56,453 nt of DNA from Gammaproteobacteria bacterium (GTDB lineage: Bacteria > Pseudomonadota > Gammaproteobacteria > GCA-001735895). Of the stretch, positions 1 to 56,320 are shown piece by piece (the first letter of the stretch is position 1; each line of letters begins with the position of its first letter). The notes under the pieces were generated by a model, which had not been told where the DNA came from, searched no databases, and worked only from the letters and a program-made list of their open reading frames with translations. The stretch covers positions 1 through 56,453 of the forward strand of contig JACNJF010000128.1 of the NCBI GenBank assembly GCA_014382695.1. Reading direction: 5' to 3'. The position numbers and the translations under genes are program-made.

Positions 1-148
1 TTTGCACACGGAAGTGCTTATACCCTGAAGGCCAGGGAGGGCCGAGAAGGGTGTTTGCACACGGAAGTGCTTATACCCTGAAGGCCAGGGAGGGCCGAGA
101 AGGGTGTTTGCACATATATGTGCTTATGCTGCGGGCGCATGGATGCGC
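1..148. repeat. Tandem modular hairpin repeat array (left edge)
   Basis: Two identical 53-bp units lie at 1-53 and 54-106, and a diverged third unit starts at 107. Each unit has a first hairpin (GCAC-acggaa-GTGC), a TTAT linker, a second hairpin (CCCTG-aaggc-CAGGG) and a tail GGGCCGAGAAGGGTG. The third unit keeps the architecture with different sequence: a perfect palindrome GCACATATATGTGC at 110-123, then TTAT, then GCGCATGGATGCGC at 135-148. Related units occur at 56138-56320. The array is cut by the window start, so its full length is unknown. It looks like a REP-type dispersed element, but no known family was identified. Confidence 0.85.
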
Positions 149-55853: not shown

Positions 55854-56057
55854 GTGGCTACATTCATATTACAGAAAAAAGCAGATGTTTTTTCCTGGTT
55901 GCTGAGGTTGTCGGCAGTATCCTCTTTTATTCAGGTATGGATAGAGCGTCACCATCAGCGTAGGCAACTGAGCGGGCTGGATAGTCGTCAGCTGGCAGAC
56001 CTTGGATTAAATGCAGAGCAGGTTTTACTTGAGACACAGAAACCGTTCTGGAAATAG
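55854..56057 (+). CDS. DUF1127 small protein
   Basis: The protein has 67 aa. The C-terminal DUF1127 motif is clear: RHHQRRQLSGLDSRQLADLGLN. The N-terminus has a hydrophobic helix-like region. The start is a GTG at 55854, six bases after a perfect AGGAGGT. DUF1127 proteins are small Arg-rich proteins; in some bacteria they bind RNA or affect phosphate and nitrogen metabolism, but the role here is unknown. It is followed by its own terminator. Confidence 0.9.
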   Translation: MATFILQKKADVFSWLLRLSAVSSFIQVWIERHHQRRQLSGLDSRQLADLGLNAEQVLLETQKPFWK

Positions 56058-56105: not shown

Positions 56106-56137
56106 GCCCTCAAGCGAAAGCGCGAGGGTTTTTTTTT
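56106..56137 (+). terminator. Rho-independent terminator after the DUF1127 gene
   Basis: A stem CCCTC plus GCG pairs with CGC plus GAGGG, with a small AA bulge and an AAAG loop (56107-56127), and is followed by nine or more T. It abuts the right-hand hairpin repeats. Confidence 0.88.
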
Positions 56138-56320
56138 GCCCAGGGACGGGCTTATGCCCTGAAGGCCAGGGGCAGATATTTGCTCCTGCAATATCTGCAT
56201 TCGCTACGTCCGTGTAGCTTAGGGCCGAGAAGGGTGCTTGCCCAGGGACGGGCTTATACCCTGAAGGCCAGGGGCAGATAATAGCTCCATACATAACCCG
56301 CATTCGCTACGCCCATAAAT
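56138..56320. repeat. Modular hairpin repeat array (right edge)
   Basis: Two related units begin at 56138 and 56240 (period 102). Both carry GCCC-agggac-GGGC, then TTAT, then CCCTG-aaggc-CAGGG, as in the left-edge array. Unit one continues with two more hairpins, GCAGATAT/ATATCTGC (56172-56198) and GCTAC/GTAGC (56203-56218), and the tail GGGCCGAGAAGGGTG. Unit two starts the same insertion but has lost the pairing and ends near 56320 without the tail. A minus-strand open frame through it (56073-56303) is an artefact of the repeat. The remaining 56321-56453 shows nothing recognisable. Confidence 0.8.

Follow-up and report, generated by a model that had tools for sequence, protein, structure and literature searches.

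The window studied here carries at both of its edges a dispersed, REP-like repeat of twin hairpins, in which the two hairpins of a unit form a predicted CsrA/RsmA-binding pair and may serve as a decoy for this regulator in read-through RNA, a reading that we regard as about evenly poised between right and wrong. The window is the whole of contig C175 (56,453 bases) of genome G000 of a marine bacterium, a 3.99-Mb draft assembly in 238 contigs with a completeness of 95.9%, and both its ends therefore break inside or beside repeat arrays.

Repeat units in the window and pairing of their stems

The repeat unit is about 53 nt long and consists of TTT, hairpin A, the linker TTAT, hairpin B and GYTT, in this order. 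In hairpin A, four base pairs carry a loop of six bases. Hairpin B is built of a 5-bp outer stem (ACCCT/AGGGT), an internal loop with GAA on one side and GAGA on the other, an inner stem of 4 bp (GGCC/GGCC or GCCC/GGGC) and again a loop of six bases. Matches to covariance model R1 placed three units at positions 1-161 and two more at 56135-56279, all on the plus strand; the left-edge feature, initially read as ending at 148, thus runs to 161. Unit 1 (1-53; 81 bits), the pairing of which is supported by the covariation tests below, contains hairpin A at 4-17 (GCAC, loop ACGGAA at 8-13, GTGC), the linker at 18-21 and hairpin B at 22-52. In the latter, the outer arms ACCCT (22-26) and AGGGT (48-52), the internal loop (GAA on the 5' side and GAGA on the 3' side) and the inner GGCC arms (30-33 and 40-43) enclose the loop AGGGAG (34-39). 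Unit 2 (54-106) is identical to unit 1. Unit 3 (107-161; 63.8 bits) has GCAC/GTGC in hairpin A, with a loop decayed to ATATAT (114-119), the TTAT linker at 124-127, and a hairpin B with outer arms ATGCTGC (126-132) and GCAGTAT (153-159), inner GCGC arms (135-138 and 145-148) and the loop ATGGAT (139-144). The altered second stem that had been noted for this third copy holds for the inner GCGC/GCGC pairing, but the outer ATGCTGC/GCAGTAT arms change too. An open frame of 151 aa from its ATG, without a Pfam match, lies downstream of the left-edge array on the same strand (292-747).

At the right edge, a DUF1127 gene of 67 aa (55854-56057, plus strand; Pfam PF06568, 39.7 bits) is followed by an intrinsic terminator, CCCTC...GAGGG with a T9 run (56107-56137, plus strand), directly 5' of the array; the T9 run was measured, and the stem was read by eye, the stem finder scoring only 3 bp. 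Of the two units behind it, one is interrupted and one truncated. Unit 4 (56135-56239; 63.6 bits) has hairpin A GCCC/GGGC with the loop AGGGAC (56142-56147) and a hairpin B with its 5' arm from 56156 and its 3' arm, GGCC-GAGA-AGGGT, at 56223-56235; about 52 nt of other sequence (56171-56222) interrupt the hairpin B loop. Unit 5 (56237-56279; 28 bits) is decayed or interrupted and consists of hairpin A (loop AGGGAC) and the 5' half only of hairpin B. An insert of about 50 bp at one point of the hairpin B loop was also observed at loci L011, L037, L040 and L041; it is built of TCC-loop hairpins, which equal GGA loops on the opposite strand.

The sequence-only reading of the window had proposed a constant TTAT linker and first stems that differ between copies in a compensating manner, and both the linker and the variants GCAC/GTGC and GCCC/GGGC are present as described. 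The compensating changes are real and lie far beyond shuffled expectation. For 15 unit sequences taken directly from the own genome, 97.9% of the cells were paired, with 33 double-change cells against 10.5 in shuffled alignments, and the covariation score reached 0.564 against 0.218, being equalled by none of the 500 shuffles and far lower for slid structures; these shuffles preserve column make-up, not relatedness. The signal persisted in 100 distinct units from G000 and its relatives (94.8% paired; 302 double-change cells vs 79.4 shuffled) and in 45 units that came for the most part from other families in the class (98.2% paired; 112 vs 32.8), two alignments of model matches fitted to the model, which lean towards it. 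What is preserved is the fold and not the letters, with paired positions varying together, as had been claimed. The second stem as originally drawn, CCCTG/CAGGG, was unsupported (covariation 0.162 vs 0.147 shuffled). Pairing of ACCCT with AGGGT is supported instead, and so the supposed 'GGGCCGAGAAGGGTG tail' is actually the 3' arm of hairpin B.

In the stems, G-U pairs outnumbered A-C mismatches (60 vs 13 and 14 vs 6), also when the outermost pair of hairpin B was excluded (27 vs 13 and 12 vs 6); this excess favours selection on plus-strand RNA, part of it being inflated by covariance models that themselves prefer G-U pairs and consensus loops. Adjacent units of a tandem array often pair with each other in the fold of lowest predicted energy.

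Loop letters and known CsrA-binding RNAs

The most constant feature of the unit, overlooked in the sequence-only reading together with its likeness to CsrA/RsmA sites and the post-terminator placement, is the pair of six-base ANGGAN loops. Both are closed by a C-G pair and match the published CsrA/RsmA motif, CANGGANG in a hairpin loop. In the 100 distinct units, loop A reads A91, N, G93, G89, A93 and loop B A98, N, G99, G96, A96; the closing C and G are kept, and mid-stem positions are free (about 0.35-0.6 bits). Two publications give the optimal RsmE/CsrA site as (A/U)CANGGANG(U/A) (PMC6849547) and the SELEX-derived CsrA site, whose core the loop letters equal, as RUACARGGAUGU, favoured within a hairpin loop (PMC4347634). 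Two copies of CANGGANG occur in 60 of 104 units, with a GGA-to-GGA spacing of 25-26 nt in 57 of these 60, a distance that would allow a single CsrA dimer to clamp a unit. ACARGGATGT was found in 23 of the 104 units and the full 12-mer in three. These published rules suggest that the units bind CsrA/RsmA. The own genome encodes one csrA gene, with an ordinary CsrA sequence.

A scan for structure only (fold plus TTAT, loop letters ignored) returned 62 distinct units, compared with 3 hits when the sequence was reversed and 0.7 when it was shuffled. ANGGAN occupied loop A in 57 of them, loop B in 58 and both loops in 55, although the scan is not fully independent because most loci came from loop-aware models. 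The array windows (33.4 kb) contained 162 same-strand ANGGAN hairpins with a stem of at least 4 bp, against a single one in the flanking control (61.6 kb); hairpins with NTCCNT loops, representing the opposite strand, were also enriched (21 in 33.4 kb vs 3 in 61.6 kb).

Among described RNAs, the closest idea is TwoAYGGAY (RF01731), a proposed CsrA binder for which a motif analysis reports two CsrA-binding matches, and one stem of which contains tandem G-A pairs (PMC4333381). The unit shares with it two GGA-loop hairpins, and the internal loop of hairpin B keeps the letters G..A and G-A (G96, A79, G94 and A95 in 100 units, counted as letters and not as pairing). The strict AYGGAY sequence stands in both loops of 12/104 and 14/45 units. 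The unit was not assigned to TwoAYGGAY because the RF01731 model matched neither the own genome at E ≤ 10 nor short array stretches; TwoAYGGAY is, moreover, described as an RNA, whereas the unit is a dispersed repeat behind terminators. No Rfam family reached its gathering score in the window, and permissive Rfam scans near arrays yielded only terminator-like or other weak matches, with a weak CsrC match at one locus (L245; 23 bits against a gathering score of 61). The sponge RNAs CsrB/CsrC and RsmX/Y/Z likewise carry several GGA-loop hairpins able to titrate CsrA/RsmA. They are, however, single dedicated sRNA genes, whereas the units are spread over many loci, in the own clade mostly with their terminator upstream and with one downstream at only 4/80 loci.

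The nearest tested precedent (PMC8144298) is provided by RrA, RrB and RrF of Escherichia coli, which arise by read-through past the first terminator of highly transcribed operons, a position like that of the units, and which CsrA bound in vitro via GGA motifs. As described there, these are three near-identical copies in rRNA operons between two terminators; the units, in contrast, follow many unrelated genes, show repeat-like turnover and usually have no second terminator.

Genomic position, distribution and turnover

In the own genus and its sister genus g2, an intrinsic terminator lies directly upstream of the array on the same strand at 63/80 loci, compared with a downstream terminator at 4/80, an opposite-strand terminator at 3/80 and, in other genera, an upstream terminator at 1/12 loci. 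Of 95 units (83 of the unit matches in relatives and 12 own loci), 59 started no more than a few bases from a stretch of at least five T residues. Units away from a T-run were mostly second units, at contig ends or from other genera, and some units followed a T-run without an evident terminator stem. Among 31 matches read from the order and class searches, mostly from other families, 8 lay directly behind a terminator-like structure and 23 did not; some matches were embedded in different repeats or capped long palindromes.

This placement bears on two other explanations. The hairpins could back up termination or shield 3' ends, stopping read-through or exonucleases, with the loops serving folding stability. 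Such a role fits the own-clade units directly behind intrinsic terminators and the strong folding of seven stretches (z of -2.0 to -5.8); we consider it unlikely, as it leaves ANGGAN in both loops unexplained and agrees poorly with the 23 matches outside terminator-like contexts and with the rarity of a second terminator downstream of the arrays. Another possibility is that the units act in cis, as a CsrA switch on the downstream gene, and not in trans as a decoy. The longest downstream frame is codirectional at 43/80 loci, and the left-edge array of the window precedes a codirectional frame. That frame is convergent at 25/80 loci, however, and no long frame is nearby at 12/80, while the arrays follow the terminator of the upstream gene and are not tied to one downstream gene; a cis switch thus appears quite improbable.

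An NCBIfam scan of 20 upstream genes gave 12 matches above the curated cut-off, 5 below it and 3 genes without a match. The former comprised ribosomal proteins S20, L9, L27 and type B L31, ApbC, AprA, peroxiredoxin, phosphoribulokinase, CcoP, SoxA, a BufA2 metallophore and a globule sulfur oxidation protein; the sub-cut-off matches were EF-G (a fragment only), SspA, an MMPL-type transporter, a small heat-shock protein and a weak CXXCW-motif match. Judging from their names, the upstream genes would be highly expressed. Orthologous upstream genes were reused across genomes, namely those for L9 in four, aprA in four and L31 in three. A proline-alanine-rich protein, similar to a sulphur globule protein below the Pfam cut-off only, was encoded upstream of arrays at seven loci in six genomes, including g2. 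A link to tRNA genes was rejected, as only one of the 15 loci scanned for it lies among such genes (L147 of G004, with a unit at 1226-1279 between two genes of a tRNA cluster).

Several flanking structures were observed beside the units. In a third genus of the family, some units adjoin tRNA genes or pieces like tRNA 3' ends, and at loci L184, L191-L194 and L232 the unit in several cases stands between flanking arms, for example GCAAAATCGC / GGCGATTTTG (both by eye). In G007, units at L159 (1224) and L160 (1207 and 2679) are nested between the palindromic repeat arms TTCCCACGC / CGTGGGAACG. In other families of the class (L247, L249 and L253), the unit tips a long imperfect palindrome, which resembles integron attC architecture; this lead was dropped because a search for repeats at six loci of the class revealed no direct repeats of the cassette kind.

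The repeat is widespread. Neither outcome that would have refuted the sequence-only reading occurred: covariation persisted in the larger sets, judged by shuffles that do not correct for relatedness, and the genome-wide searches called for there showed the copies to be numerous. Model R1 had 28 matches at E ≤ 1 in the own genome and matches at E ≤ 0.1 in 21 of 57 genomes (the own included); model R2, at E ≤ 0.001, matched 22 of the order's 41 genomes and, in the class, at least 81 of 369 genomes and at least 63 of 271 genera; these counts are minima, limited candidates having been scored per genome (15 in the class search). Arrays probably break assemblies, leaving the repeats under-counted. 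Contigs of several relatives were likewise seen to terminate at such arrays. An exact pattern search found the unit on contigs of the MAGs SI039_bin4 (presumably from Saanich Inlet) and MO_103.B18 and of an uncultured Thalassolituus MAG. The phage-like contig L225 (IMGVR_UViG_3300042196_000075) carries one complete unit (2743-2798, scoring 68 bits), which follows a terminator-like hairpin and is situated between the genes for the major tail and tape-measure proteins. It was the only convincing unit among five viral contigs matched by a short-pattern search, and individual units used as BLAST queries gave no convincing match to phages, plasmids or E. coli genomes.

At the rplI site, arrays are present in G000, G001, G004 and G005, and the site is empty in G002, G003 and G007 and without an array in the g2 genomes G008 and G010 (L9 was found in 35 of 36 genomes, and 30 sites were read). 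Units from the same locus in different genomes were as similar (identity 0.655) as units from different loci of one genome (0.663). Since same-locus identity is no higher and empty sites exist, no single copy is essential; since the same loci recur with copies no more alike, positions are reused and copies replaced, as in REP elements. Empty sites and weak locus-specific similarity represent REP-like turnover.

REP and BIME elements are short clustered intergenic palindromes with compensating stem changes and, if linked to a RAYT transposase, a GT(A/G)G head (PMC2817692). The unit shares with them multi-copy intergenic palindromes preserved by compensating changes and differs in having two unequal hairpins and the head TTTG (T74, T81, T91 and G92 of 100 units), in agreement with the initial view that it belongs to no recognised GTAG-type class. 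As to the REP-associated transposase gene suggested as a further check, a single Y1_Tnp gene is present in the own genome, but its flanks are without units, the nearest array lying about 5 kb away. By its head sequence and by the lack of a unit-flanked transposase gene in the own genome, the unit is judged not to be a RAYT-type REP.

If the repeat were instead a mobile element acting solely as DNA (REP/MITE or IS200/IS605-type), its hairpins would be ends for a hairpin-binding transposase, with the loops and linker as the contacts of this enzyme, the T-runs as its target and the CsrA likeness as coincidence. Tandem copies, genome-specific subfamilies, the empty rplI sites, the opposite-orientation hairpins nearby, the Y1_Tnp gene, and own-clade units that mostly start at a T-run, sometimes without an evident terminator stem, all agree with this explanation, a serious rival that is possible but on the unlikely side. 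Besides the head sequence and the unit-free flanks of the Y1 gene, it is opposed by stems that differ greatly within one array yet stay paired, which would be odd for freshly transposed ends, and by constant loop letters that equal the CsrA motif, closing C-G pair included.

Putative decoy function

In the CsrA/RsmA decoy reading, each hairpin would present a C-ANGGAN-G site, and a CsrA dimer would bind the unit with one loop per subunit. In the own clade, where the units, often in tandem, sit just past the T-run of a terminator, polymerase read-through would produce a 3' extension with several CsrA sites; this extension would act as a small CsrA decoy, in an amount tracking transcription of the upstream gene. 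Transcription would occur by read-through, and titration of CsrA may be the selected benefit. Termination upstream means that the hairpins would occur only in read-through RNA, which counts against a decoy, as do the pairing between adjacent units in predicted folds, the enriched opposite-strand hairpins, the small share (8 of 31) of matches behind terminator-like structures outside the own clade, and the dispensability of single copies.

A broader version, which we regard as doubtful, is a distributed CsrA/RsmA sponge, in which mobile hairpin pairs scattered in many gammaproteobacterial genomes would together set CsrA activity through their summed read-through; in the own clade, such pairs would stand behind the terminators of growth genes, and the phage-like contig would carry one. 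What appears new is CsrA-site RNA hairpins that would be organised and spread like REP elements. A search of the open-licence PMC literature found no description of these repeats, which is weak evidence of absence.

If CsrA does bind the units, what would otherwise be taken for REP debris would amount to an extensive and hidden reserve of binding sites for a global regulator, present in roughly one fifth of the Gammaproteobacteria sampled. Such binding would also offer a testable explanation of why certain short palindromic repeats retain their fold, and the expression of ribosomal, elongation-factor and sulfur-oxidation genes would be tied to the titration of CsrA.
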